DNA of 64,000 nt from the NCBI RefSeq assembly GCF_001632365.1, contig NW_024468516.1, positions 590,177 to 654,176 on the forward strand, written 5' to 3'. Numbering within the stretch: position 1 is the first letter of the stretch; every line of letters begins with the position of its first letter. Under the pieces are notes generated by a model. The model did no database searches, was not told where the DNA came from, and was given only the letters and a program-made list of their open reading frames with translations. Shown one piece after another: positions 4,409 to 22,366 of the stretch. This DNA comes from Laetiporus sulphureus 93-53 (lineage: Eukaryota; Basidiomycota; Agaricomycetes; Polyporales; Laetiporaceae). A program made the position numbers and the translations under genes.

Positions 4409-4585
4409 CTACTTCTGCTTTGGTGGCTCCGCACAGCCGCATGCGGGATAAGTGCAGCTGCCGCCGTTGGCTTGAACATTAGCGCAAGTTGCTTTGTCCT
4501 ACACACCGACAGAGCGAGTCAGTGTCAAATCTGTGCTCTAGACCGCATCAAACGGTATAGAGAGTGAATGACTACTCACAGACAT
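4409..4585 (-). CDS. 31-residue cysteine-containing peptide, copy A
   Basis: The gene has two exons: 4585-4580 encodes only Met-Ser, then an 81-base intron (donor GTGAGT, acceptor TAG), then 4498-4409 encodes 29 residues and a TAG stop. The second exon reads DKATCANVQANGGSCTYPAC followed by GCAEPPKQK. There are four cysteines spaced C-x9-C-x4-C-x-C, with no signal peptide and no membrane segment, so a cytosolic location is likely. The CxC pair and small size suggest a metallothionein-like metal-binding peptide, but the cysteine content is lower than in classic fungal metallothioneins and this is inference only. Two near-identical copies elsewhere in the window, with the same intron position, show that the frame is selected. 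A TATATAAGG box lies about 50 bases upstream. Confidence 0.82.
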
Positions 4586-4634
4586 GGTTGTGATGGTAGT
4601 CGAGGACTGGGGAGGACATGGAGGGTCGGTAGGG

Positions 4635-4645
4635 CCTTATATATT
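4635..4645 (-). promoter_or_regulatory. TATA box of mini-peptide gene copy A
   Basis: Reading the minus strand, TAATATATAAGG lies about 50 bases before the ATG at 4585. Copies B and C have TACATAAG and GATATATAAAT at a matching place, so this is probably the core promoter. Confidence 0.6.
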
Positions 4646-4672
4646 AACAACAGGAGTCAGCCCTGACCCGCG

Positions 4673-4731
4673 ATTGGGTGCGTAATGCACTTTGCGCGAT
4701 TGGTATGAACAATGCGGAACAAGCTATTGGT
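4673..4731 (-). promoter_or_regulatory. Conserved 59-base upstream block of copy A with CCAAT boxes
   Basis: On the minus strand this block starts ACCAATAGCTTGTTCCGC and ends CCCAAT. It aligns without gaps to 22045-22103 upstream of copy C with 56 of 59 bases identical. Its distance to the ATG is the same in both genes (87 bases between block and start codon). It contains three CCAAT motifs, the sites normally bound by the HAP/NF-Y complex. Copy B keeps only parts of it. Confidence 0.7.
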
Positions 4732-4739
4732 GGTAAGCA

Positions 4740-5659
4740 GCGCAGCCGACGTGCATGGATCAAGCTGATGCCAGTTTGACAGAAGAGACACTTTCCATTG
4801 GTCCAAGTCATCATTCTATGCGGCAAGGCTGAGCTCGTGGAAGCCGCAGTCTCTTCAGCATGTCGCACACGGACCTATGTGAAGACCCAGTCTCGTGCAC
4901 ATCACACGAGGTGGGCCTTTCAAGCGACGCAACTCCAATATAATCAGGAACTTGACGAAACTCAAACGTGTAAGTCAGATCGCGAACATTCTTAGAAACA
5001 GTAATCACTGGACACTCATCATTTGAGCCTTAGAGTTGATGCATGATGCATGATGTGTCATCATCAATGTGAAGAGGTAGGCTATCCCACTCTATTGCAA
5101 ACATCTAACGTCTTGCTGACGTCTACCTGGAATGTATCATCACTCGCCTGAAGCACCTAGTTTTAACTCAAACTCCGAGTTAACACATGCATTGCAGCCA
5201 AGATTCCACGGATACGTTCGCGTGCTTTGTGAGGCTCGTTATGTCCTGTATCCGACTGATTTATGTGAAGACTAATACTTAAATCACCGAAATCGCGTCG
5301 CTGGGCGGCAGTGGACTGAATGCAACGGGTTTGGGAACGTGCATGTCGGACGAAGAGTTATATTAAGAGCAAGAGGTCCTCACGCATGATTATCGGTCTG
5401 CTTCAAGCGCGGCGTTCATTCAATCTCCATTGCAAGCCATCGATGCAAGATACTAAGTCGCAATACACATCCTTCTCGTCTACAATCCGCCTGACTAGCT
5501 GACATCACCCCCACGGATCCCAAGAGACGGTTCAGGCAACGAAGCAGAGTGTGCACCTAACTAGAGGCATAATACATAGCGATGGTGAGTTTTGCGCTTT
5601 CACGAAGCTAATGATGGAGGCTTGCCTGTGAAGACGAAGGACCAAGCACGCGGACGGCT
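4740..5659. other. Spacer between mini-peptide copies A and B
   Basis: About 0.9 kb holds upstream sequence of copy A and the 3' flank of copy B. A short repeated ATGATGC/TCATCATCA tract lies at about 5037-5066. Open frames here are short, lack domains and are not supported by splice sites. No gene is called. Confidence 0.4.
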
Positions 5660-5825
5660 TCACTTCTGCTTGGGTGGCTCAGAGCAGCCACACGCTGGGT
5701 AGGTGCAGGTGCCGCCGTTGGCCTGGACGTTAGCGCAAGTAGCTTTGTCCTATTCACCGACAAAAATGAGTAACCAGCCGCCTTGCTCGACAATCGGGAA
5801 TGGAGAAGAGAGTACTCACAGACAT
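5660..5825 (-). CDS. 31-residue cysteine-containing peptide, copy B
   Basis: Exon 1 (5825-5820) encodes Met-Ser. A 70-base intron follows (GTGAGT...AATAG), then exon 2 (5749-5660) encodes 29 residues and TGA. The peptide differs from copy A only at two places: Thr for Ser before the second cysteine and Ser for Ala near the end (GCSEPPKQK). The spacing C-x9-C-x4-C-x-C is kept. It lies about 1.1 kb upstream of copy A on the same strand, forming a tandem pair. A weak TATA-like TACATAAG is at about 5883-5890. The upstream region shares fragments such as GCATTGTG and CCAATTGCG with the other copies, but has diverged more. Confidence 0.8.
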
Positions 5826-6305
5826 GTTTGATACTTGTGGATGTGGTAGTCAGGGACTGGAGGGAAGTGAGGCTCGCGAGGCTCTTATGTACCAACTTTG
5901 AAGATGTCATCCTTGGATCGCAATTGGTCGCGTTTTCACAATGCGTCGATTTCGTGCAGCACAATGCGTATCAGGCTGTTGAAGCATGATTAGCAGTTCG
6001 GTGTCAGTTGACAGAACCGACGCATGCCATTGGTCAGGGAATGATACAATGGCACTGAGGTGAATCTCCGGCCGGGACAAGTATAGCATTAGCAGCTTCA
6101 TGGTTGGGCAATGCTGGGAACGAGCTCTAGTTTTCCACTCACGGGATAGTGGCAGACTGGGGGAGGTCGCATGCGCTTAGAAATTGAGCTCTCTCGTGTG
6201 GCAGACTAGCGAATCTTTCTATTCCTGCATTTATCAGAACAACTAGTATCGTACATAAATCGGAAATAAAGACATCGAAGCCAGACCATCCACATTGAGT
6301 ATTGG
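5826..6305. other. Upstream region of copy B and 3' flank of GMF
   Basis: The 0.5 kb contains the diverged promoter of copy B (5826-6030) and then the 3' end of the GMF gene. A short TTGACAGAA...CATTGGTC arrangement at about 6008-6037 recurs near 4778-4803 upstream of copy A, on the same strand relation. No gene is seen. Confidence 0.4.
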
Positions 6306-7089
6306 TCATCCATGAAGCAGTTTCGAGTCGATAATTTCCTGTGTAAGCCCCTCTGCTCCGTCGCGAACCTCTATCACCTTGCTGATATCCGCCTGGAGCA
6401 CAGGGCAGTTCACACGCGGTCACTGATCCATCAGATCGTAAGGCACTCACTGTATTCTGGAAGTCGATGAATGCACTGGCGTGCAATGTGAGGAGGCTCA
6501 TCTCGCTCGATCGCGGAGCCCAATTGACAAGGACCAAAGGGAATGACTTGCGTCCGTCAGAATGGTTCAATTCATGTGATAGGACCACATAGCGTGGTGC
6601 GTTCTCCGGTAATGCTGATTAAGGGAACGATGTGATGTGCAGCTGGACTGGATTCAGCACAGAGCACACCTTCCGCCAGGTCATCAATACTGATACTGTC
6701 GAATTGCTCAACCTCCTCCATGATCAGTTTCTGCTTGTTGATTTTAACGACGAGCGCGGCGCTCCCTGCATCGCGCCGGGCGAATCTGAACTTGCGGAGT
6801 GAGGTCTTGAGCTCTTGGGGGATATCGACGGTATGAGACTATATGCAGGGTGGCAACGCTCAAGATTGCATGCAGAATGGCAGCATGAAGCACAAGAACA
6901 AACCATTGGAACCGCGTTTGCTGACCAGGTATCGCGCTGGCTGGAGAAGAGATGACCGGCGTCACTGGCGCCGCTGTAAATAAAGATAAGATAAAGTTCC
7001 GGATCGTTAACGGGATCTCTTTTGCCATACACGGCAGTCTTCTCTTTGGTCTGCAAGCTTGCCTCACACGCAGAATAGGTTGCGCTCAT
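6306..7089 (-). CDS. GMF1: Glia maturation factor, ADF-homology Arp2/3 debranching protein
   Basis: GMF proteins bind the Arp2/3 complex at actin branch points and remove branches. Three exons are clear: 6838-6670 (VDIPQELKTSLRKFRFARRD, then ALVVKINKQKLIMEEVEQFD), 6614-6451 (LPENAPRYVVLSHELNHSDG, RKSFPLVLVNWAP) and 6392-6306 (ADISKVIEVRDGAEGLTQ, IIDSKLLHG, TGA). They join in frame to 139 residues and cover a complete ADF-H fold. Exon 1 is not settled: an ATG at 7089 opens MSATYSACEAS and could splice from GCC|GTGTAT near 7032 into 6838, but that intron would be about 195 bases, long for this genome. The divergent neighbour at 7282 shares the upstream region. Confidence 0.88.
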
Positions 7090-7281
7090 TTTTCAATGGC
7101 AATGCTATCGCTATTCACGTCGTCGCCGGAAAGAGATAGTTCGGTGCTTTGTGAAGGTGGTCTTGGGTCGTGTGCCGCTCCAAGCCTATCGTGCCTATCA
7201 GCTGGACGATAACGCAGTGCTCACCGTATTCATATCCATTTCAGCTGACGTCCGTGTCGCCGACGTTTCATTCTCATAGCC

Positions 7282-9724
7282 ATGTCGAGTTCGAGGGAGT
7301 CCTCGAGGTATCACCGCGATGCGTCTCGTGAACGGCACCTCGCGTCGACTTCGCGCGGAACGCGTAGCGTCTCCGCATCGCGTACATTCCCTCTAGAGCT
7401 CGATGTCGAAGCAGATCTCCTCATTCACCCCGATGGTGCTGTCGCTACGGAGATTCTCCGTCCTTCCGAGACTGAGATCGAGGAGGCGACGGACAGTTTG
7501 GAAACTCCTGTCCACGGAGTTTCATCGAACGGACAGGATTTTAAGCCGTGGTGGAAGCGGCCCTCTCCATGGTGGTGCGTGTAGTCGAGCGGTGTTCGTT
7601 CAGATTCAAAGACACTCATTTGTATTTGCAGGTTCCTTACCATCACTCCGGTCGTGGCTCTTGCGAGAGCTGCCACAATGGCACCTCGAGTAGAGATATA
7701 TATCCAACTAGTATGCGATGCGTACAGGCCGGACACAACCGTCGGTCAAATGTTCTCATTAGCTGCGAAAGATGGAGGTCGGTCATTATATTCCCGAGAA
7801 AGCTGGGGACGGAACTGAATGTCGCATATGCCTTCAGATAGATGGGAGCTCTGCTCGTCCGATCCGGTCGTGCAAGCCGCTGTGGCGAAGCTGGCGATGG
7901 CGATGACGACATCTATGGGTGTTCTGGGATGCCTTACCACAGGTTGGTGGGGCTCGGTACGTAATGTCCAGATTCCTACTGGCGGCCATCGTTAATGAGG
8001 CTCTTAGCTTTCTGATCGGTATGGTCGTACGAGAGTGATGACTGTCGCGATCATCGGGCTTTTGTTGGAGGACCTGGGCTTCCTGATAGTATGCAATTTC
8101 TCCAAACTACTGCCAGGAGGTTATTGGGCCTTGACGGTTGCGCCTGTGATTGCGGGACTAATGGGAGGTGTGCATATAGTCAGTGTCGGATCACATGTCG
8201 TCCTAAACGTTGACGAGGAGCGCAGGATTGGGGACGGCTGGCGCCAACATGAATGCCTACATAGCTGACTGCACAGATGTGACGTCGAGGTGCGTCTCAA
8301 TATGTCTCCATCTGTGCTCATGCTGAATTTCCCTGCATACAGATCCCGCTTCTTCTCTCTCAGCCTCGGCCTCCTCTTTCTAGGCTACAGCATCGGGCCC
8401 ACGTTCGGCAGCGTGCTCATAAGCTACACACGGAATACACTCTCTGTTTTCGCCGTCGCCGCGACGCTACACGTCGCGTACGCGTTCCTCACGGGCTGCA
8501 TCATCCCTGAGTCCCTGAGTACTGCGCACATGGCGGAAGCGCGCGGGCGGGCTGCGGAGGAAGAAGCACAAAGGACAAAAGGTGGGGTGAGGATATGGCT
8601 GGCGAGGACGGTGGGCGGGTTTATAAGACCACTGGCCTTGTTGCTGCCTGGCAAAGTGGAGATGGAAGATGGAAAGCAAAGGAGAAAGAGGGACTGGAGC
8701 TTGTTGTTGCTCGCGGCAGGGTACGGGTGTACGATTGCTCTCAAGGTGGGCAATACCGTATACTCGTCGAGAAATGGAAGACTAACAATATCTAGGGGGA
8801 TATCACATATGAGTATCAGTACATGTCCCTGATGTACGGATGGACATCCGAAGAGGTGCGTCTGCGTCAATTCTGAATTTCTACGTGCATGTTAACCAAT
8901 GCATTACTATGACCAGCTCGGATACTATACGAGTGCGCTCGGTACTACTCGCACCGTCTATTTGACAATCCTGTTGCCTCGTGCGTGCCATTCATAAATG
9001 TGTCAACTCATGTGCTGACCACTTGGCATGCATAGTGATCATGAAAACCCTCCAGCCTAAGCCTGCCATTCAGATATCAACAGAACAGCACAAGCCCTTG
9101 GATTACAGAAGTATCTCCCGACCAACATCCCCTTCTACCAAATCTCAGTCGCCGCCGCCAGGATCCCCATCCCACCATGCCTCACCTGCCCTTGACCTCG
9201 CCCTCGCGAGGCTGTCCATCCTTATCGAGCTCGTTGCATATACGTTGATGGCGCTTGCGCCGAATGGTCACCTATTCACCGCATACGCTATCGTCAGCGC
9301 ACTCGGGGCCGGATTCACACCCGCAGTGAATAGCGTTGCATCGGCGCTATATATGCAGCAGGGTGGGCGCGAGCTTGGGAAGCTGTTTGGCGCTCTGGGA
9401 GTTGTGCAGACGATTTGGTGCGTGTGGTTTTTCTCTCCATGCACTGATGCCTGTTAATGAACCTGTCTCAGCTCGCAGGTTATGGGCCCGTTCGTCTTCG
9501 GGGTAACGTATATGAAGACGGTAGCGACGTTTCCGCAGGCGATATTTGTGGTAACGGTCGCTGTGTTGGCGGTGTCCTTCATAATGCTAGTTCCCACCCG
9601 TGTGCACTCACCCTCGAACGTGGACGTTGAGGGACCGACCCGCGAACCCACGCCCGTTGGCGAGCGCGCGCCGTTGCTGATGCAACGAGGCAGGAAGGCG
9701 GCTGGGCTATCGGCGACTGCCTAG
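7282..9724 (+). CDS. Major facilitator superfamily transporter, paralog 1
   Basis: Ten exons (7282-7574, 7632-7777, 7838-7956, 8008-8167, 8226-8289, 8343-8745, 8796-8855, 8917-8980, 9036-9417, 9472-9724) join in frame to 647 residues. A Ser/Arg-rich cytosolic N-terminus ends in KPWWKRPSPWWF just before the first membrane helix. MFS motif A between helices 2 and 3 reads GSLSDRYGRTRVM. A long charged loop (about residues 290-350) separates the two halves, and the tail carries ERAPLLMQRG. The family resembles fungal DHA1/ZIF1-like drug or metabolite exporters; substrate unknown. The first intron splits the codon of the second Trp of SPWW, as in the paralog at 14431. Confidence 0.9.
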
Positions 9725-9855
9725 GTAACTGAGGATCTGTCGAAGTCTATGCTAGAATGGATGGCATCTGTAATATTTTCTCATAACTTCAATTCAATGT
9801 CGTGTGACACCGACGCGCGAAAATGTTCAATCGACTATGGAAGGAATGGCACCTA

Positions 9856-10585
9856 TCACACAGAGGGTCCAAAAGTGAGGATGGGGGTGCCCCAAAGCCA
9901 ATCCGGCTTCACCACTATAGGTCGTATCGGGACAGTGAATACTGCCCTGGTATCTGCACCCACAGTCAACATGAAGGATTCCCCTTCATACACCTCATGT
10001 ATGTCTCTCCCATCCTCCCTCTCAACCCTCCCACGGAGAAAATGTGGCAACCAATATCGATCGGGTGTTTGAACTCTGTAGAGGTGGCATGACGGGGGAG
10101 TTCGGATGTGCTGCAACGTACGTCTGTCGACGAAATCGAGGCAGTACGTATGACAGGCTTCCATGCCTTTGCCCCAGATACGGACGGCGAAGTTCACATT
10201 CGGCACTGAGAGATAATGGACGTCGCGCTCTCCGGGCACGGGTAGGCGCTGATTGTTCGAGTATCAGTGGGATGAATGATGCGAGACACAAGGCGCTTAC
10301 TCCAATGATGGGTATCGACTGGTCGAGGACCGCCTTCGCATGCTGCCGGACCTCCTCCATAGCTTCGCTATCTGTGATGCTATCACCGTACTTGAACTTG
10401 CTCTTCATCATTGCGAGCCAATCGTGAAAGGTGCCGTTGAAGGCGATGTGATAACGGCCCCAGTACAGCAGCTCGGTGTCGTCCATTTTGGTGTGGTCGA
10501 GTTCAGGATGGCGGACACGCACTATCGCCACAGCGTTTGAACGGTTTGTTCCTGAAGCGAGTTCTAAAAACTCGGAGGGCGGCAT
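9856..10585 (-). CDS. Uncharacterised protein, 225 residues
   Basis: Two exons, 10585-10301 and 10248-9856, splice at GGA|GTAAGC and ...TCAG|CGC to keep one frame of 225 residues. The ATG at 10585 (MPPSEFLELASGTNR) is chosen because a TATAAGG motif lies about 40 bases upstream at 10625-10632. No domain is recognised. Visible features are a mixed alpha/beta composition, DDTELLYWGRYHIAFNG, and a C-terminal half rich in aromatic residues (DRYWLPHFLRGRVERED). There is no signal peptide or membrane helix. It sits directly downstream of the truncated TPR/J gene on the same strand. Confidence 0.65.
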
Positions 10586-10648
10586 AGGGTGCACTATCGG
10601 TCGCTCTTGCTGAGCAGGACCGGCCTTATATGCTTGACGACGTCGCGT

Positions 10649-12417
10649 CTACGCAGACAATTCGCCATTTGCTTGACTGGAGCTTGTATAACAGACAGCA
10701 CACACCTTTCCAGAAGTGCTTCTCGTTGGTCCAATGTTTGCCCGCTGTGAAGAGTCCGTCGCTTCCTTCGACACACCTGTAACTATCCTGAGTACTGAGT
10801 GAAGGCTAGGTCTTGTAGCGCACGTACCGAGGATTTTGGAGTAGTCCTTCGATTTGCTCCGTTTGAGCGCCAGCTCGGCCTTCTTGAGCTCAGATCGCAA
10901 TGCCTTCACGTCCGCATCGCTGCCTTCGAACTCGGCCTGCTCAATGGCCGACTTGAAGTCGGCTATCGCGTTGTCGTATTTCTCAAGATGCAAATAGATG
11001 TGGGCGCGCGTGCGGAGCCCCTTGAACGATGCAGGGTATAAGCGAAGAAATTCTTCCGTATCTTGAAGGGCATCTTCGTATTGCTCGAGCTATGGCCACC
11101 GAGAATACGAAATTAAGCTTCAAGGGATGCTAGGGTTCCTCGTACACTACGGACCTTCATTAATGTCGTGGCGCGATGCGACAGGAAGATCGCGCGGATC
11201 TGTCCACCATTCCCTTCGTTGTCCTCCTCACCAATGCGCTGAGCAATGACGTCAATGATCGCGGACTAGCCTAAAGCAAACCACCCTCACACCAAGTGCC
11301 TCGCCATACCTCTCGGTGGCTTCTTGCAAGCGGCCAGCCTTGAAGGCAACGTTACCCTCCTCCTTCAATCGTTCTACGTCCTTGATCCGCTTCCGTAACC
11401 GTTGAGCAACTTCGTGTCCGGGGTCCAGACGCAGAGCAGACTGCACATGCTGCAGTGCCTCTTCGATCTTCGCAGTCAGGAAGAGGACCAACCCTCGGAG
11501 GGCCAGTACATCTGGTGAGTTGGGCTCCAGATGCAGTGCCTCACTGGAGAGCATGACGCCATCGATGAGGGCGAAAGTGTACGCAGGGGCGTCACACAAC
11601 TTACCTGGATGCAATACCAGCCGCATCCCAGTTTTTCTGTGCCAATTCAAACTCAATCCGTCCCAATTTCCACTGCACTGGTATATCTCCTCCTTTCGCT
11701 TCGATTGCCTGCACGCACTTGTCCAGTGCAAGCCGCGCCGTCACCCAGTCCTGCCTTCTCTTTGCGTCCTGAAAGTTCTGCAGATGCGCCTCCAGCTCGA
11801 GCACCTTCTTCTGCAGTTGTAGAGCCGGTCCATTGTATGGCTCGAGATCAAGCACAGCGCGAAGGGTGGATAGAGCCGGCGCTGTCGACCCAGTAAATAG
11901 CTGACAACGAGCTAAACGGATCAGTGTTTTCGATGACGGAGATTCTGATTGAAGGTCAGCCGCTTGTTGGCAGTCTGCGAGCGCAAATTTGAACTTCTTC
12001 AGAGCCATGTAGGCGGCGGCTCGATTTGTGAGATACGTCGGCTCTGCTGGGTTTAATTCTGATGACAGCGCATGAAGAAGAGCCATAGAAGATGCAGGTT
12101 TATCTATTCACCAATAGCCCAAGAATACGATTCGACGGCATCCATATATCGCTGCGCTCTGAAAGCGGCATTGCCCATTTCCTTGACCTTCTCCGCGAGC
12201 TTGATTGGGTCTTCCTCGGGCTCAGGCTGCATGTCTACTGTCTCAAATTGTTCAGCTTGATCAATATCAGGTTGATCGACCTCGACAGGGCTTTCATATC
12301 TGCCCACGCGCTCAATTGGAGCATCGCAAGGCATGATAGAAGAATTGCGTACCCGTCGCTGCCAGAGCCAGCAGCAGCCTTCGCCTGTTGCCTCTTTCTC
12401 GCAAGCGTGTTCATCAT
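10649..12417 (-). CDS. TPR co-chaperone of DNAJC7 type with truncated J domain
   Basis: DNAJC7/TPR2 proteins pass clients between Hsp90 and Hsp70, using TPR repeats and a C-terminal J domain. Exon 1 starts at the double ATG 12417 (MMNTLARKRQQAKAAAGSG). TPR units follow from 12299 down: EKVKEMGNAAFRAQRYMDAV, AIELNPAEPTYLTNRAAAYM, EALHLEPNSPDVLALRGLVL, RLKEEGNVAFKAGRLQEATE and LEQYEDALQDTEEFLRLYPA, ending with KKAELALKRSKSKDYSKILG. The J domain begins correctly (KDYSKILGVSKEATDS) but then leaves the family pattern: no HPD motif follows, and the frame stops at the TAG at 10651-10649. The TPR part is intact. Either the gene is 3'-truncated or the annotated end lacks an exon I could not find. Confidence 0.85.
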
Positions 12418-14430
12418 ACTTCGAGTAATCTGAGCCTACAGCGACGGAGTCTTCCTAGGAGCAACGAGGCAGGACGAGCCACTGAAACCGCGAATAAGCG
12501 CCGGTCAACGCGTTCAACGCCACAGGCGCGACTGCGACGCGTCGCGGACGCGACGATCGCACGTGTTCGGGCTATTTCCGTGAGTTCCGCCAAATTCTGA
12601 CACTTATATATGCGTCTCGCTGGCTACAAGTTGAAGGAAAGTCAGTCGTGACTGACGCTGCGATGGACATTGGAACTACGACATGTTGCATCGTCTCACA
12701 TCCTCGGTCTACTAGTAGAATTGTTTGTGGACACTTTCTTTCTCCGAAAACTGCGGAAGAAACACCGAGCGAAACGTTCTCGTGCAAAAATCATTCCTTC
12801 CACCTCAGAGGGAGGAAAAGATCAGCTAGTAAGTTACTGCTATCACTTTCCTAGGAGTTTACGTGCAGAAGGGACTCAGGATGATTAAGTTTAGTTCCAG
12901 GAGTGTGGATTGCTAACGATAAGACGACCGAAATTGGTCAACGTACGTGCGCACGGATCGCTTACATGTGGTACTACTACTTCAGAGCATGTTGATCTAA
13001 TGTCCGACCAGATCTCAAGATCGACGCGGAGGTCGACGCAGTCGAGCATGCAGCGCACAATGCAGCAAGGAGCATTCCTGCGCAAACAATTCACATCAGA
13101 TAACACAGTACGTGCCACTGTTTTCGATGTCCTGCACAATCTTCGACATATACCCGACGGGGACCTTGAATTCTCAGACATAATGTAAGTGAAGTACGCA
13201 TAGAGGGGAACAACTGTTGTTCCAAGCCTCATCGACTCCAAGATCTGAATTGCATGCACGCTCAGACAAATTCCAAGATCACGACATATATCAATAGCAC
13301 AGTTTCCTGAGCATCCACGGGGAGAGGCCATCACATGCGGGACATCAATACTTAGTTCAATTAGCCACAGCATAGGCAGAAAACAGCGAGTTCGCTTGAA
13401 GTTTCCGCGTCAATGAATGATGGGAATTCTCATCAATGGTCATTTTGAACGCAGCTGTGAAGTGGCATTGCTGGATCGTGTCGCATTGCATATGAGACCG
13501 AGGATGTCGAGCATAGATTGGCGAATTTCTTGGCCTTGGACTGTATCCTCGGCACGGAGCCTACGAAAGATAAGATCAGAGAAACGATGGAATCCGCCAT
13601 TTGGCAGAATCGGGAGGGCGTTGCGGACGAAGACAAATGGGAGCTGCAGTTCGTCCTTTGGACAGTGACTGCTCCGCAGAATGGCCTGATGGACATCTGC
13701 AACATCCGAGTTAACAGCTACAGTGCCCCAATGCACGCGTTCGTCAACCTTGCGCAAGTATCTCCACGTCTGGAAGGTGCTGTAGGTAGTCTGGGTGGGT
13801 CTCCACTTGCATTTGAGCAGAGCGAATCGGCAGGGTGCCGTCGTCAGTAGCATGACAGGAGGCGCAAGACTCCCCAGGTGTGGGACTCGGGAGGGACAGA
13901 GTATGCGAGCCGGATCTGCTGGAGTGTCCACTCATACTCGCGCAGAAGCAAACAGACCCGACGAGGTTACGACGCAGTTCGGCGTGTCATCCTTGCGCGC
14001 GTCGTTGATCGCGTGTGTTCTTGCCGAAGGCTCTTCTTCGGCCCGCTGACGTCTGTGCTAGCTACTAACTGCGCCTGCATCGAGGCCCTGAGGCTGATGG
14101 GATTGGCGCAGCAGCTAGCAGCAGGTGTCATCGCTGATGATTTATCTTTATATCTGGAGGCGTACATAGTGCTTCAAGACGTCCGAATTGATAGGAACAA
14201 TATCCGTGCAACGTCGATTCACCCGACATCCGTCACCGTGGCCGAGGCGTGAGAACGCCGAGCGATCAAGAGTGCCTGCGGGATCTTGAGCTCTCTCATG
14301 GCTGACCGTATCCGCGTTGTAACCCATGGCGCCAGTGGCTACAAAGACCCGTTTTCCGCTGCCCCTCCCAATCTCCCCTCGCTCCCCTCGCCCCACCTGA
14401 GCGCAGCCAACGACATAGACAGTCGCGTCC
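12418..14430. other. About 2 kb without a confidently identified gene
   Basis: Several open frames overlap here. On the plus strand, pieces at 12652-12831, 12902-12942 and 13012 onward can be spliced with good GT..AG sites and look protein-like (VELFVDTFFLRKLRKKHRAK; GVWIANDKTTEIGQ), but no start codon or known domain is found. At 13440-13931 a 163-codon minus frame overlaps a plus frame at 13518-13850. The stretch may hold a decayed gene or an uncharacterised one. The promoter of the transporter at 14431 must also lie at its right end. Confidence 0.35.
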
Positions 14431-17040
14431 ATGTCGTCCAGGGACCCCTCTCGCCTTCGCGTGCGCGATGCGCCCTCGCGCTCCCGTTCTCGCCGCCCGC
14501 GCGCGTCCCGCAACTCCTCGCTCGTATCGGTCCCCTATCTCCCCGATAACCCTGATGCGCTCGTCAATCCGGACGGACAAATTGGCGACGAAGCTGCAGA
14601 GCTTCTGCACGAGTTCGTGCATCCACACAGGCACGACTCGGACGAGACACTCACGGCGGACGAGGAGCCGCGCGAAGAGGCTGATGGATCGCTGGAGAAC
14701 GACGATCTGCTGGAAGAGGCTGTTTTGGAATGGAGGCAGAGCCTGCCTTGGTGGAAGAGGCCTTCTCCTTGGTGGTGAGCTGGTACTCTCTGCTGTCTGC
14801 ATGCCGCGAAGTACATGTTGCATGCAGGTTCATCTTTCTTGTGCCTTTCTCTGCCATTGCCATATCCGCCACGATGGCTCCACGCATCCAGATCTACACA
14901 CAGCTCGTATGCGATGCGTACAAGCCCGAGTTCAAAGCTGGCCGAGGCGCGGACAAGAGCCCGATGTCCCTGCTGTCTGCAGTGGCACGTTCATCCTACA
15001 TGCTGTCTACGGTCACTGCGCTAGACGGTACAGCTATTATGCACCGCTCGCAGTATGCATGAGCTTATTGCCTGTCGTATATGCACAGACCGAACGTACG
15101 AGCTGTGTGCGGCCGACCCCGTCGTGCAGCAGGCAGTATCTAAGCTCTCGCTTGCCATGCTTAGCACCATGGGAATACTCGGCTGCTTGACCACCGCTTG
15201 GTGGGGATCGGTGCGTTACTTCGCCCCGTATCGCTGCATCATGCTGCATGTCGCACTTACATCTATGATGATTAGCTCTCCGATCGATTTGGGCGCACCC
15301 GAGTGATGAGCTTCTCCGTCATCGGTCTGCTGACGACCGACGTGAGCTTCATCGTCACTGCGACTTTTGCCAACAAGCTGCCCGGAGGGTACTGGTTCCT
15401 GCTATTTGGACCTATTGTGGAGGGCATGTTTGGCGGTACGTAGTCGTTTAACTCCTCGTCCGTCTTGAGTGCTGATAACGGACTGGATGGACAGGGATAA
15501 GTTCTGTGATGGCTGCGATCCACGCATACATTGCCGACTGCACTGATCCCGCTGCCCGGTAAGTACCAGCGTCAGTTGTTTATTCGCCGTGCTGTGGTTT
15601 CTGACCGCATATACCCACTTTTTGTAAGCTCCCGCGCCTTCTCTCTCTTCCTCGGCCTACTCTTCACGGGCATGTCCGTTGGGCCTACGCTGGCCTCGCT
15701 CCTGATCAAACACACGCGCAATCTCCTCGCCATCTTCTATATCGCTACGGCAGTGCACATAGTGTATGCGTTCCTCATCCTGTTCATCATTCCTGAGTCG
15801 CTTGCGCCCGTGCAGAGGGCGGCATCACGGAAATTGTGGAAAGAGGAGCGCAAGAATAGAAAGGAGGAAGAGGACGGGCGGAGCGGTTGGTTGCGGTTGA
15901 AGAAAGTGCTAGGGTTCGCGAAGCCGCTGGCGATGTTGGTGGAGAGTGTGGAAGACGAGACAGGGAGGCGGAGGCGGGATTGGAGTTTGCTCATGCTCGT
16001 GGCTGCATACGGGTGTGTCGTGATGCTTCTCGGCTCGATTACGTCGAAGATGCAGTACATGACGATGATGTTCGAGTGGTCGGCGGAACAGGCGCGTGCT
16101 TCCCATTTTTATGTCCCATGGCTGTTGTTAATAGCACACGTCTATTCAGGTTGGCTACTGGTCCAGCACGGTCAGCGCTGTCCGCGCTTTGTGGCTCACT
16201 GTCCTCCTTCCTGGTTTGTATTCTTCAGTATGGAGCATGCATGGATCTCTGATGGACTTGTCCAGTAATCATTAGCTTCTTGCAACCAAAAGCATCTGCG
16301 GTCCGTCTGCCCGTGGAGCCGGACGAACCGCTCGTTCCCTCCCGACCCTCCTCCCCATCATCATCCCCTCCAGCTGCTGCCCCTCCACCGATCACGCAAT
16401 TCTCTTCCACACGCGCGGCAACACACCACCATCACGCCCACTTGCCCGCATTTGACCTCGCACTGGCACGCGTTTCGCTCCTGATTGAGATGGTTGCATA
16501 TACTCTTATGGCTAGTGCGCACACGGGCACGCTATTCACTGCGTACAGTGCTCTGGGTGCGTCCGGTGCGGGCTTCGGGCCTGCGATTAATAGTGTCGCA
16601 GCGACTTTGTATTCGCGGCGCGGAGGGCGGGAACTTGGGAAGTTGTTCGGCGCGCTCAGCGTGGTGCAGGTTATCTGGTAAGATGCTGTGTTAATTACTG
16701 GAATACCTAAGCTGATGATACGTGCGCGTGCAGCTCACAGATACTCGGCCCGTTCCTGTATGGTGTGATGTACATGAGTACCGTGGCGACGTTTCCGCGC
16801 GCGGTCTTTTTCCTGTCCGTAGGCTCGCTCACTGTGTCGTTCGTGCTGCTTTCCTGTATCCGGCTCCCGAAGGACACGGGCGCGAGCGGCGACGAGGAGA
16901 GTCGGGCACCGCCGCACCGCGAGTCCACACTCGTGGACGCGGATGTGGAGATTATCGTGGAGGACGTGGACGAGGAGGAGGCTGCGCGTGGGCGGAAGCC
17001 TGGGATTAAGCCTGCCGTTGCGGGCGGGTCAGAGGCGTGA
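14431..17040 (+). CDS. Major facilitator superfamily transporter, paralog 2
   Basis: This is a close paralog of the transporter at 7282-9724, in the same orientation. It starts MSSRDPSRLRVRDAPSRSRS, has the same LPWWKRPSPWWF sequence before helix 1, and the first intron (donor at 14775) splits the same Trp codon. Shared landmarks include TMAPRIQIYTQLVCDAYKP, GSLSDRFGRTRVM (motif A), KLPGGYWFLLFGP, HAYIADCTDPAAR and GRELGKLFGALSVVQVIW. Loops differ: the central loop carries a Pro/Ser-rich stretch and an HHHH run, and the C-terminus is long and acidic (DVEIIVEDVDEEEAARGRK). Twelve membrane helices are likely. Substrate unknown; the shared exon structure shows origin by duplication. Confidence 0.9.
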
Positions 17041-17395
17041 TACTGTTTTCAAACATCCGTCGCGATCCTTACCCCTTACCGCTGTTTATGCTCGGCGCAA
17101 GTCGCCCTCCTGGCTAGATTTTCCTCCATGAACTGCGATCTATTCTCGTGCGGTTCTCCTTGTGATTGTACTTGTATCTCCTTTCGGCTTCCCGCGGTGT
17201 AGTGCGCGATTACTGTAACTTTGTATACGAAGAGTATTGTACCATAGATGCTGCTATGCGAGCATAACAGCATAGAGTAGTATACGGTAGACGATACGCT
17301 AGCTAGATAGACAATGTCATTTCGCGATAGAAACTAAACATATTTACCACACGTGCGCCACTCAGCGATCAACTCATTTGCACGCACAGCATCGT

Positions 17396-18963
17396 CTATA
17401 CCGCCTGCGAGCCATCCTGCTGACCCCGCCACCGCCACCACCCCCACACGCCGAGACCGAGCACAAAGTTGCCGACGCCGAGAGCTGCGGAGCCTGCGCC
17501 GATGAAGACGAGGAGGCACCAGCAGTAGCCGACGAGCCGGCCTAGGACTCGGCCGGTATACCGCTTGAGCGGTGCGTATGGGTCGGGACGCGGTGTGTAG
17601 GTGGGTGGAAGGCGGAGGGTAGGTGGAGTGGGTGATTGAGGGGACGGAAGAGGGGGGGGAGGGGGGAGGAGGAGCAGAGTTACGATGGGTTTCTGGGAGT
17701 TGTTTGAGTGGAGGCAAGGGAAGGAGAGGATGAACAAGGAGGAGGAATGATACGTACATGGTCTGAGGTGGTATATGAGGGCACGGTGGTATATAGGAGG
17801 TTGCTGATGTGTGACTCTTCTGAGTTGTCGGAAGAGTCGGTGTACGTCGCGTACATGATGCGGTCTGTCCAGGCGGGTAACCGCTTTAAGCTAGCGTAGA
17901 GTGTGAAATCGGGTTAGACAATTGAAAGAGGGAAATGGCTGGCCACGCACTCAAACTCATGTATCTCACCCAGCTTATACTTATAGCTACACATGAACCG
18001 CCAGAACTCGCCCTCCCGCAGACAGGCGAATGCGCTCTGGTTCACGTCTCGCTCGACACTGAGCTCGTCATACTCCGCCAGCTCGCGCCTCGTGGACTCG
18101 TCAGACAGTGCGTGTGCAAGGTCTGCGGGTGAGAGAGCGGCAAGGCGGTGCGTGGGTGGGATCCTGAGTCGGAAGTTGAGGTCTCCAAAGAAGAAGAGGT
18201 GGGAGGAGGCGTAGATCGTCGTGGGGGCGCTGGAGCTGGTGGAAGAGGAGGAAGAGGGGAGAGGAGGGAAGAGCAGCGTGCCGACGATATGGTGGTAATC
18301 CTGGACACGCCGGTGGAGGTTGCAAGCATGGGCGGTGAGGTGCGCGCAGACGAAACTGTTTCGTGCGTTCGATAATCGCGTTCATAGCAAGTCTATACAC
18401 ACGACGCGCATTGTGGACGTACGTGTACACCTCGCCCAAACCGTCATCCTCGCTCGGAACGCGGAACCGCACGCCCACCGCGCCCTTGTTGCCCATGTAC
18501 GCGGGGCCGCATCCCGTCCACTGCGTCTCCACATCACACACTGTGCGCGCGACACCTTCATCCAAACCGTATACTAGCAGCGCCACGCCGACGTTGACCT
18601 CTTTCGCGATGAGCGAGTAGCGCTCCTTGTTGGGCGCGTGCGCTTCGATCTGGGAGAGGATGAGAGCGTTCCTGCTGTCGATTACCGAGGACGATAGGCC
18701 TGCAACTATATACATAACCTCATGTGAGTCGACATGACCCATCTCTAGAGAAGAACGCAATCACATCCCAGGTGCAGCGGAAGGAGCTCCTGGAAGCCAA
18801 CCGCGACAATGTCTGGAGCGCGGTGCGTGACCTCTGCTGCACGAGGCGTCGACGCCTCGAGGGTCGGGGAGAGCCAGTCGACAAGGTCCTGGGGGAGGCC
18901 GCTGTCGGCCTGGAGATTTGTATTGTAGGACGCTATCTGGACAAGCAACCTGTCCTCAGACAT
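17396..18963 (-). CDS. Inositol polyphosphate 5-phosphatase with C-terminal hydrophobic segment
   Basis: The enzyme removes the 5-phosphate from phosphoinositides or soluble inositol phosphates. Exon 1 (from ATG 18963) gives MSEDRLLVQIASYNTNLQAD and PDIVAVGFQELLPLHLG. Later motifs in order: YMGNKGAVGVRFRV, FVCAHLTAHACNLHRRVQDY, FFGDLNFRLRIPPTH, EFWRFMCSYKYKLGEIHEF, LKRLPAWTDRIMY and TTSDHKPIVTL. These are the EEP-fold signatures with catalytic Asp/Asn and His. After the domain comes a Pro-rich linker (PPPPPLPSPQSPTPP) and a hydrophobic span (YCWCLLVFIGAGSAALGVGN onward) ending near 17396. No Sac1 domain is present. The tail suggests membrane anchoring. It converges with the transporter gene ending at 17040. 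Confidence 0.9.
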
Positions 18964-19057
18964 CGCAGCAAGAGCGCCCGTGGTGAGGCGATATTCAATC
19001 AGTCACCACCGCAGATGATCGATCGGCGATTGATCAAGACATTTAGACTCAGCGCGC

Positions 19058-21282
19058 ATGCCGTCCGCCACTGTGCATCTCATCCTCGTCGACATGCCTC
19101 CGCCCGGAAAAGCCACTGTGCAACAAAGGCGTCGTAGACGGCCGCTGAATTTGAAGAAGTATTCGAAAAGAGAGCGCGTGCAACAGCTCGAGGGTGTCCC
19201 GACAGAAACCGAATGGAATGCAATGAAGCGCCTCGGATCATTCACTAGTAAGTAGCTGCCATGTCTTCTCTATTTGGCACTGACTCTCATCTTTTGTACA
19301 GTAGATGTTCAGGAGAAGCTGGATGAAGAGAATTATTATGACACTGGTTCTTCGAGTGACCCAGATGGTGCGTCACCAAGTTCACTTGTCGGACCAGGCT
19401 CGAGCAATACACCAGATTCGGGTGACACCGACACGACGAGCATTGTGACTACAGGAACTGGAACGAAGCTAATATCACGACCGGTCACATTTTGCAAGGG
19501 CAACGAGTGAGGATTTTGGGGAATCTTGTGCTGTATCCTTTGCGCATTCTGATCCACATACCTAGTGCGAGGCTCTTTTCGGTTGACGATGATACCGAAA
19601 ATGCGTGGATTGGGAGAATCCGGCAGATTCGAAGGGATCTCACTGATGATAAGGTCTGGGTGAAGGTCTACTGGTACTATTCGGGATTCGACATTAAGCA
19701 GACCCTGCTGCGTAAATTGTAAGCAGTCCGATTGTTTTGTCACTCTCAATGCATTACTTTAATGGTTATTCCCAGCAACCCTGCAGATTTTTCTCCATAT
19801 GAAAGAGCAGCCTCTGACGACTGTGACATTGTCTCTGCACGCTCTTTCCTTGGTATGTATCTATTACAGCTGCTTCAATATATTTTTATGGCCTCCACTC
19901 ATCCTGACTTGCTTGTAGGAGTGGTCTATGTACATGACTATGATGAGCACAGACTGGATCCCCCCGACATAGAACCAGACACGTTCTTTACACGGACATA
20001 CATTCAGCCTCAGAAGAAAATCATCGAGGTGAGGGACATGTAAGGTTTTGTGTGGACATATTCACAGCTATTAACAGCCAAAACCTGGGACGGAGACATG
20101 CCTGTGTAGACAGGCATATATCCCGTATCCTTGGCAAGGTTCTAGCATTGCCTCGCCGTAAGTAATCTGAAATCAGAAGTCTCATGAACGATGATCTGAA
20201 CAAACAATTTTGTTCGCATATAGTAAGGATGACGCTGCTCCAGACAGCATGCACTTCTGCCCGCGGGAGAACTGCCGCACTTGGTACCACACATCATGTC
20301 TGATGAAGTACGGAAGGGTTGATGATTTCAATGTTACGTGTTATGAAGGAGACCGTGGCGTGCGCCTCCTCGCTGTCAATCCAGACAGTGACCTTGATTG
20401 TGCAGTGCTAAGCAGTTTCTCAAGGCCGCACGACCTGGATGTGAGTGTCACATTCAAGCTACATCTCGCCTTTAGCTCCACCATGGTATTCATTACATGT
20501 TGCCTTCCATCTTCATGTGTCCTGGGTCAACAATGCTTGATCTGTATTGATGCATCTCCTTACAGGACTCTACAAGCGAGACTTCAGAACTCAACCGCTC
20601 CCTGTCCGGCACACCTGCCACCACCTTCTCCACCCTCGCACCACCTCTCTCTCCTCTCTCCCTCTCGGAAATTATCGAGCAGATGGCCGTGTCCTATCGC
20701 ATCGCCCACCTTCCCTCCTCCCTTGTGCGTCTCGCGCAGAGCCCAATTGTCCGCCGACCAGGCATTCCGCCACCCGACTCGGGCTGGAGCGCAGTGGGGA
20801 ACGTGAAGGAGGTCGTGCTTGCGCGGCGATTCGTGTATGCTGCGCTTGAGGGATTCCATCCTGAGAACGGCGAGCATCCTGCCGGACAGATGGAGGAGAG
20901 GATGAGGGATATGGAATCGCTGTTGGAGGCGATGGAACGGGGTGAGATATGGGCATTCGATGGGGAGGCGGGGGAGCACGAAAGGGAGGATATGGATGTT
21001 ATGATGGATGTGGACGGAGAGGGCGAGGAACACATGAACGAAGAGCGTGAGGCTGGCAATGGCAACAGTCACGCAAGCGGCAATGCTGGAGCAGGAGCTA
21101 TTGTGGATGACAAAGAGCGCCGACTTCAAATTCTCGAGAAGCTATGTGTAGAGCTCACGGAGACTATTCTTCTGGCATCCCCATATCAACCGTATTGGGA
21201 GCGACGTGAGCATGAGCTCGAGACAGAAATGTGGATGAACACCCCACCACTGGTATGTCCAAATTGCAGGGGTGCCATCTAG
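19058..21282 (+). CDS. BAH domain protein with a PHD-like zinc finger
   Basis: The N-terminus is basic (KATVQQRRRRRPLNLKKYSK), so nuclear location is likely; an alternative in-frame ATG lies at 19094 (MPPPGKATVQQ). A Ser/Asp/Thr-rich linker follows, then a BAH domain over several exons: NAWIGRIRQIRRD, KVWVKVYWYYSGFDIKQ, CDIVSARSFLG, VVYVHDYDEHRLDPPDIEPD. A zinc-binding part begins ETCLCRQAYIPYP and continues MHFCPRENCRTWYHTSCL. About 280 mostly acidic or coiled residues follow, and the protein ends in LVCPNCRGAI at 21282. Such proteins read or organise chromatin. The final CPNC may complete the finger across the long insert. Confidence 0.82.
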
Positions 21283-22190
21283 AGTCAGGTGCATATGCTG
21301 GATGGTAGCTGGGAACATCTCTTTGGATTCATAGATACCATGCGATAGTTGAGCAGGTTGTGGACGAGGTCCGCTTGCATTGTGACTGTATATGCATCAG
21401 TGAATTGCATCGTGATTCTCACGAGTGAATGAATGACTGCACTTGAGTTATATCCAGTACAGTGTTCGCCATCGATGAGAGATGCGAAGATGTATTTTCT
21501 CTGTGACTGTTGCATGAGTCAGAGTCATTGAGGATTACGTAGCAGACTTGTAAAACAGTCTGGCTTACGATCGAGCGGGGCAACGTACACCGATGCACTC
21601 AGCTACCTTGGAAATACGATGCAGCATACAATGAGATCATACGCGAATGAACAACAAGCAAATCGTCATATGCTTCAAACACAAGTCAGCAAGATGTTAG
21701 GCGGTCTTCGCAGAGCGAAATAGCTCATGCACTATAAAAGACTCAAAAACTTTCAGCTGCACCGCTACGGATGATCATAATACTAGACTTTCTTGGATAT
21801 CAAGCTCCCGTATATATCGTATCGAGTTACCTGTTATTGATACTGCATGGCTCCAGGCACCGACTTTGACTGTTTCGTATGGACGTTTAGTTCGTAGGGG
21901 CCCGTGTACATGCGCGGAGATATGTAGGCTCCACGAGGCCCGCGCCTTGTGAGTTCCATTCAATAATCTCCTACCCAATCGTAAGCGTCTACTCCGTCAA
22001 ATTGGCACTGGATTAGTGCTCACATTATTTGCCACACCTCTGATACCAATAGCTTGTTCCGCATTGTTCATACCAATCGCACAAAGTGAATTACGCGCCC
22101 AATTGCAGCTCAAGTCTGACGTCTTCAGAGCTGATATATAAATCCTCGTCAACTCGACATTTTCTTCACCCCTCGACTACCATTGCAATT
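21283..22190. other. Intergenic region before mini-peptide copy C
   Basis: The 0.9 kb holds the 3' flank of the BAH gene and the promoter of copy C (from about 22040). Open frames between 21285 and 21978 are short and featureless. No RNA gene or repeat is recognised in 21283-22040. Confidence 0.4.
22045..22103 (+). promoter_or_regulatory. Conserved 59-base upstream block of copy C with CCAAT boxes
   Basis: This is the counterpart of the block at 4673-4731 (minus strand). It differs at three positions only and ends 87 bases before the ATG, as in copy A. It holds ACCAAT at both the start and the middle and CCCAAT at the end. A TATATAAAT box follows at about 22134-22142. Confidence 0.7.
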
Positions 22191-22366
22191 ATGTCTGTGA
22201 GTGCTCGTTCGTCTCCCGAGTGCCTGCGCGCCGCAGAGTTGCGGCGTGATGCTGACGCGCTTTTGTCGATGAATAGGATAAAGCAACCTGCGCTAACGTC
22301 CAAGCTAACGGCGGTACCTGCACATACCCTGCATGTGGCTGCGCGGAGCCACCCAAGCAGAAATAG
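22191..22366 (+). CDS. 31-residue cysteine-containing peptide, copy C
   Basis: Exon 1 (22191-22196) encodes Met-Ser. The intron 22197-22276 (80 bases, GTGAGT...AATAG) is followed by exon 2 (22277-22366), 29 codons and TAG. The second exon reads DKATCANVQANGGTCTYPAC then GCAEPPKQK, a blend of copy A (Ala near the end) and copy B (Thr before Cys2). It lies about 17 kb from the tandem pair and in opposite orientation. A TATA box and the shared CCAAT-rich block lie upstream. After the stop, GTCCGGTCTCC and TCGTCGTCACAG match the 3' flanks of the other copies. Function unknown; metal binding is inferred only from CxC. Confidence 0.82.

Follow-up and report, generated by a model that had tools for sequence, protein, structure and literature searches.

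The 64-kb stretch of Laetiporus sulphureus 93-53 analyzed here (the window, contig C7:590177-654176) carries three small genes, copies A, B and C, that encode almost the same cysteine-containing peptide. A first-pass annotation had divided each gene into a first exon of two codons (ATG TCT), a short intron and a second exon of 29 codons. We re-read the three loci and spliced them in this way, and the coordinates, strands, exons, GTGAGT donors and intron lengths given there were all correct (Table 1); the splicing is predicted. The product has 31 residues, MSDKATCANVQANGG[TS]CTYPACGC[AS]EPPKQK, and the second exons vary at just two of them, position 16 (T/S) and position 25 (A/S), as had been proposed. 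Its cysteines follow the pattern C-x9-C-x4-C-x-C. All three introns begin with GTGAGT and end in TAG. Their interiors, earlier called unrelated, are not wholly so: the introns show a weak resemblance to one another, beyond that of shuffled sequences (z 2.6 to 4.5), and are similar at their 3′ ends. A further feature, absent from the first-pass annotation, is that the 200 bases upstream of the three genes are strongly alike (z 11 to 23 against shuffles); the 150 bases downstream show a weak likeness (z 4.4 to 5.1).

The family had been described as three copies and is far larger. A peptide search of the genome (38.6 Mb in 124 contigs; match counts are lower bounds) returned at least 15 matches with the first query and at least 16 with the second, and these loci, at least 16, comprise 14 intact copies and two decayed ones. 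Seven intact copies are of the DKATC type (DK; the three in the window, three on contig C3 and one on C41), six are of the DTVKC type (DT; four on C16 and two on C14), and a single copy on C23 is of the DSVKC type. The gene structure is common to all 14: each has the two-codon first exon, ATG TCT in 13 and ATG GCT in one, and each reads ATG-NCT directly followed by GTNAG. The donor is GTGAGT in ten copies, GTCAGT in two, GTAAGT in one and GTGAGC in one, intron lengths range from 52 to 84 bases, and a branch-like site is present in 10 of 14 copies as CTNAY and in 13 as the looser YTNAY. Peptide length is exactly 31 residues in 13 copies. The remaining one, on C23 (L017:2614-2795, plus strand), runs on at the C-terminus to 42 residues, alone among the intact copies, and is also the one with the ATG GCT exon. 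As for the decayed copies, one of the DTVKC type (L014:4450-4539, plus strand; C14:346449-346538) keeps the ATG TCT GTGAGT start and has an in-frame stop in exon 2, and the other, on C23 (G000:C23:31577-31663, minus strand; L017:578-664), has lost cysteine residues.

The peptide is under strong selection. Counted as minimum changes, the window trio differs by 19 synonymous and 2 non-synonymous substitutions, where 25 to 26% synonymous changes would be expected, and the corresponding counts are 30 to 4 in the seven DK copies and 18 to 1 in the six DTVKC copies, where about 25% would be expected without selection. The three tests for synonymous excess gave binomial p values of 1.8e-9 (the trio, computed with 27%), 8e-10 and 1.2e-13, and are not independent of one another, the copies being related. 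Rates of non-synonymous (dN) and synonymous (dS) divergence, rough values from 31 codons, tell the same story: dN is 0.014 to 0.028 and dS 0.93 to 1.44 in the trio, the DK set has means of 0.035 and 0.92, and for the six DTVKC copies the mean dN is 0.0046 and the mean dS 0.49. Over all pairs, with the subfamilies crossed, dN/dS has a median of 0.12 and a maximum of 0.41 (90 of 91 pairs). The earlier claim of selection on the peptide through mostly synonymous change is therefore supported. Recent gene conversion does not account for the peptide identity, as the copies have diverged at synonymous positions. The four cysteines never vary across 11 aligned forms, nor do NGG, PP and the G of CGC; the full set of invariant non-cysteine residues is D3, A8, N13, G14, G15, P20, G23, P27, P28 and K31. 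Position 19 retains an aromatic residue, Y or W, in all 11. This is a real peptide family with a conserved and odd gene structure.

The family is largely unannotated in databases. Two protein searches yielded eight relatives, namely two from L. sulphureus 93-53, one from Rhodonia placenta and five European Nucleotide Archive (ENA) proteins without a name; both named host species are brown-rot polypores. The profile search, which considers a protein only if its length is 0.55 to 1.75 times that of the query and it shares 5-letter words, examined 178 candidates and reported eight at E up to 10. L. sulphureus proteins were found in these searches for only 2 of the 14 genes, and both have doubtful starts. 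P0002 matches the first C16 copy at every residue, beginning with the in-frame reading upstream of that gene and continuing through MS, joined to DTVK and the remainder of exon 2; its modeled start lies too far upstream. P0001 is an alternative splice form in which intron letters are translated and the ATG TCT exon is unused. The expectation that gene finders would miss this gene is thus borne out by both models. Three further proteins, P0005, P0006 and P0008, contain MSVSI, the unspliced reading of ATG TCN GTN AGY. The models of P0002 and of P0004 (R. placenta) are themselves spliced between MS and D, at the proposed site, which, with the 14 intact copies, upholds the two-codon first exon. 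A longer N-terminus of the kind seen in P0001 and P0002 was considered for the family and rejected. All 14 intact copies have an in-frame stop 2 to 46 codons 5′ of the ATG, and near-identical duplicates (the first L013 copy and L015) have different upstream frames; therefore no longer N-terminus is common to the family. As a separate observation, the upstream reading of the decayed C23 copy, MIFSPRVPAQTTFYPSPHTIF, closely resembles the N-terminal extension of P0004, MIFTPRLPAQTTFYPSPDAIF, which could mean that the 5′ leader is conserved or that the family has a second form with greater length.

We then asked what kind of peptide this is. No Pfam or NCBIfam family reached its cut-off for the peptides, and our search of the literature on metallothioneins and cysteine-rich peptides found no description of this peptide. 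The PDB gave no significant match; the first was ergtoxin (1ne5, E 0.66), followed by a pseudomonad metallothionein (E 2.8), and a profile search of the PDB retained ergtoxin alone (E 0.21, not significant). Ergtoxin is a secreted disulfide toxin, with which the peptide shares four equally spaced cysteines and NGGTC. The other likeness is to bacterial metallothioneins (PF02069; 6gv6, 6gv7, 6grv; SmtA, 1jjd), whose C-terminal half has the same C-x9-C-x4-C-x-C spacing. Among 36 of these proteins the last four cysteines are spaced x9-x4-x in 27 (including 18 close Pseudomonas relatives), x10-x4-x in eight and x10-x3-x in one. Unlike them, the fungal peptide has no N-terminal CxCxxCxC or YCxxC part and no histidine. 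PF02069 did not match any of three family peptides, whereas a pseudomonad control, at 52.9 bits, passed the cut-off of 33, and in the genome it gave four weak sub-cut-off matches, none at family loci. Two fungal peptides matched the bacterial set better than 300 of 300 full shuffles. BLASTP against one pseudomonad metallothionein found 8 of 18 residues identical (E 0.001, a single comparison), and a profile-profile comparison gave a probability of 13%. One prokaryote scan with two patterns found no relative, and shuffles with the cysteines held fixed did nearly as well as the real peptides; we claim neither homology with the bacterial proteins nor a transfer. Since the spacing is common to the last four cysteines of pseudomonad metallothioneins and to a disulfide toxin, it does not decide identity, and it suggests a possible mode of working rather than descent.

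The peptide also differs from fungal metallothioneins. In general, metallothioneins have a high share of cysteine and few or no aromatic residues, whereas here cysteine makes up 4 of 31 residues (12.9%) and Y19 or W19 is always kept. Agaricomycete metallothioneins of the AcMT, HcMT, LbMT and PiMT type are reported to have seven cysteines in the pattern C-x4-C-x-C-x2,3-C-x-C-x4-C-x-C (PMC12508003); they are likewise short, have more than one gene per genome, have introns of about 50 bases (AcMT) and end their motif in C-x4-C-x-C, and the difference lies in seven cysteines against four. The family 8 Cu-thionein of Neurospora crassa, reported as 26 residues with seven cysteines (PMC4755600), is also very short, and as a query it found no match in the genome in a search run without a positive control. 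Neither of these published seven-cysteine patterns occurs in the peptide. The Russula proteins RaZBP1 and RaZBP2 are, by description, metal-binding and from a basidiomycete too, and reportedly bind zinc through cysteine and histidine (PMC9696665); the peptide has no histidine. Judged by sequence, the peptide thus falls outside the metallothionein families tested. The suggestion of a minimal metallothionein in the first-pass annotation is weakened by the low cysteine share, the kept aromatic, the frozen non-cysteine residues and the lack of a seven-cysteine pattern; metal binding, its other part, is plausible. The peptide has no hydrophobic leader (highest 9-residue hydropathy 0.79) and is therefore most likely cytosolic, and because four reduced cysteines would lie within 18 residues of a cytosolic peptide, a metal site is the simplest meaning we can infer. 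An AlphaFold model of P0002 has a mean pLDDT of 58 and a pTM of 0.25.

The promoters may divide the family. With the patterns applied here, TATA[AT] lies 56 to 102 bases 5′ of the ATG in 10 of 14 copies, TTAAAA takes its place in one more, and a CAGTY start-region motif is found in 11; an unbiased k-mer scan recovered chiefly TATA and CCCCAG start regions and pieces of CCAAT. CCAAT boxes, counted on both strands per 300 bases, number 2 to 5 (mean 3.7) in DK promoters, compared with 0.86 in the other seven copies and 0.52 in random window stretches, and four or more occur in 0.5% of 2000 such stretches. Within 320 bases, 10 of 23 plus-strand CCAAT boxes of the DK copies are followed by N12-RWT, ATT every time, versus 4 of 101 elsewhere in the window. 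The spacers of these ten sites have a mean identity of 43% with ATT invariant, and when sites with similar spacers are grouped the count is 7 of 17 (binomial p 2e-6, post hoc). CSAATN12RWT is the reported HapX-binding motif of Fusarium (PMC10602907). At least one such site is present in six of seven DK promoters, with the proviso that the motif comes from ascomycetes and may not be that of basidiomycete HapX. The genome encodes a HapX-like gene (L054; C23:212819) with a Hap4/HapX binding motif above cut-off, where the next frame contains a bZIP-like stretch (Pfam bZIP, 20.8 bits, below the cut-off of 27.6) and several cysteine-rich stretches, and it encodes a HapB/NF-YA protein above cut-off. 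Of the leads gained here, a possible link to iron through HapX is the most informative. In several basidiomycetes, expression reportedly requires introns or benefits from them (PMC8379801), and a fixed intron position combined with mostly free intron sequence would fit a role in expression. Two further upstream elements possibly have a control function: TGACATACC, found 5′ of both intact C14 copies (L014) and of the C41 DK copy (L010), and GACATACC, present in three of five lineages of the DT set.

Taken together, we favor a reading in which true two-exon, multi-copy genes produce cytosolic 31-residue Cys4 peptides that act as a metallothionein-like metal buffer, with the DK copies probably switched by HapX; we put its probability at about 0.5. 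Most likely, the four invariant cysteines would bind a single divalent metal ion or a few Cu(I) ions, so that the peptide would work like a tiny metallothionein or metal buffer. The large number of copies, mostly TATA-like promoters and an intron right after the start would together give a high dose of product. The DK subfamily would probably be switched by the CCAAT-binding complex together with the iron regulator HapX, and the DTVKC subfamily would probably be under other control.

Several observations weigh against this reading. A conserved aromatic and frozen non-cysteine residues are unusual for a mere chelator, the cysteines number just four, and similarity to bacterial metallothionein beyond them is weak, with 19 and 27 of 300 cysteine-fixed shuffles equaling the two fungal peptides. 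Among ten neighboring frames scanned with Pfam, no metal-handling gene was recognized. The promoter of copy B lacks any N12-RWT site, and when both strands are counted more loosely, three of seven promoters of the other subfamily have one HapX-like site, so that the contrast between subfamilies is unclean. Furthermore, nine motif types, that of HapX among them, were scanned once the CCAAT boxes had been noticed, which makes the HapX p-values post hoc; the background was the window at large rather than a promoter set, and the DK copies are related. Metal-response elements (MRE) were not enriched in the promoters, nor were stress-response (STRE), heat-shock (HSE), AP1 or Yap-response (YRE) elements. 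An ACE1-type motif occurs in four of seven DK promoters (0.57 versus 0.21 per 300 bases), cases too few to carry weight.

The frozen residues lead to the most serious alternative, a structural zinc-knuckle microprotein, in which Cys4 would only fold the peptide and a surface of NGG, W or Y, and PPK would bind a protein or RNA partner, giving a regulator and not a buffer. The ten invariant non-cysteine residues, the very low dN of the DTVKC copies beside their dS, and the limit of one tetrahedral site with four cysteines all favor it; 14 near-identical copies, however, suit a dosage product better than a regulator, and the peptide has no known partner. We consider it possible but doubtful. It is improbable that the peptide belongs to the metallothionein family of SlMTa and SlMTb, reportedly described from Suillus luteus by Nguyen and colleagues in 2017. 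One report names a Suillus-type Cu-thionein, said to occur throughout Agaricomycotina, as the sole metallothionein detected in R. placenta (PMC9320278), and that species also encodes the present family (P0004). Such ubiquity would predict many matches, whereas the profile search gave eight, the named ones from L. sulphureus (2) and R. placenta (1). Membership in that Suillus family is the main question of identity.

We think it very unlikely that the peptide is a disulfide-bonded CS-alpha-beta peptide acting outside the cell. The cysteine spacing and NGGTC of ergtoxin, the best PDB match in both searches, point that way, as does Pfam Toxin_17 (E 0.2), but none of these E-values is significant. 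CS-alpha-beta peptides have a signal peptide and six or more cysteines; this one has four cysteines and neither a signal peptide nor a hydrophobic stretch. Finally, we give almost no credence to duplicated non-coding DNA without a functional peptide. Decay of 2 of 16 copies is what it could explain, and it is already contradicted by the codon pattern, alongside the kept splice signals and a homologue in another genus.

If the metal-buffer reading holds, the family may bear on brown rot. A study of copper tolerance in R. placenta did not find classical mycorrhizal-type metallothioneins (PMC9320278). A highly conserved Cys4 peptide that R. placenta encodes and Laetiporus has in many copies is a candidate to fill this gap in the metal handling of brown-rot fungi. 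Brown rot is reported to depend on iron, with Fenton chemistry named (PMC8052766), and HapX-type promoters would tie the family to that basis. One speculative and rather unlikely scenario casts the family as a means of iron handling that brown-rot polypores have amplified and annotation has missed because of the two-codon first exon. HapX-controlled Cys4 peptides would then hold iron, an Fe-S cluster, or the zinc and copper entering together with iron, during iron-based Fenton decay of wood, and the second subfamily, under different control, would serve other conditions. More generally, annotation can overlook an entire peptide family because of a two-codon exon.

Table 1. Predicted exons, introns and promoter elements of the three peptide genes (window coordinates).
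Feature	Position	Strand	Details
Copy A exon 1	4580..4585	-	ATG TCT
Copy A intron	4499..4579	-	81 bases, GTGAGT...GTGTAG, CTGAC branch-like site
Copy A exon 2	4409..4498	-	29 codons + stop
Copy A promoter	4586..4801	-	CCAAT beginning 4801, 4730, 4703, 4677 (middle two with N12-ATT); TATAT near 4643
Copy B exon 1	5820..5825	-	ATG TCT
Copy B intron	5750..5819	-	70 bases, GTGAGT...GAATAG, CTCAT branch-like site
Copy B exon 2	5660..5749	-	29 codons + stop
Copy B promoter	5826..6033	-	CCAAT beginning 6033, 5927 only, none with N12-RWT; no match to the TATA pattern applied
Copy C exon 1	22191..22196	+	ATG TCT
Copy C intron	22197..22276	+	80 bases, GTGAGT...GAATAG, CTGAC branch-like site
Copy C exon 2	22277..22366	+	29 codons + stop
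Copy C promoter	21975..22190	+	CCAAT 21975, 22046, 22073, 22099 (middle two then N12-ATT); TATAT 22135

Of the ten frames scanned around the window copies, seven had a Pfam family at E ≤0.01 and three had none. The families were GPI mannosyltransferase, MFS (two pieces, under its cut-off), TPR, phosphatase, RRN6 and P450, and they do not point to a gene cluster. Between copies A and B on one side and copy C on the other lie two MFS-like regions (7249-9457 and 14419-16681) with a common PWWKRPSPWW stretch; these were perhaps duplicated together with the peptide genes.

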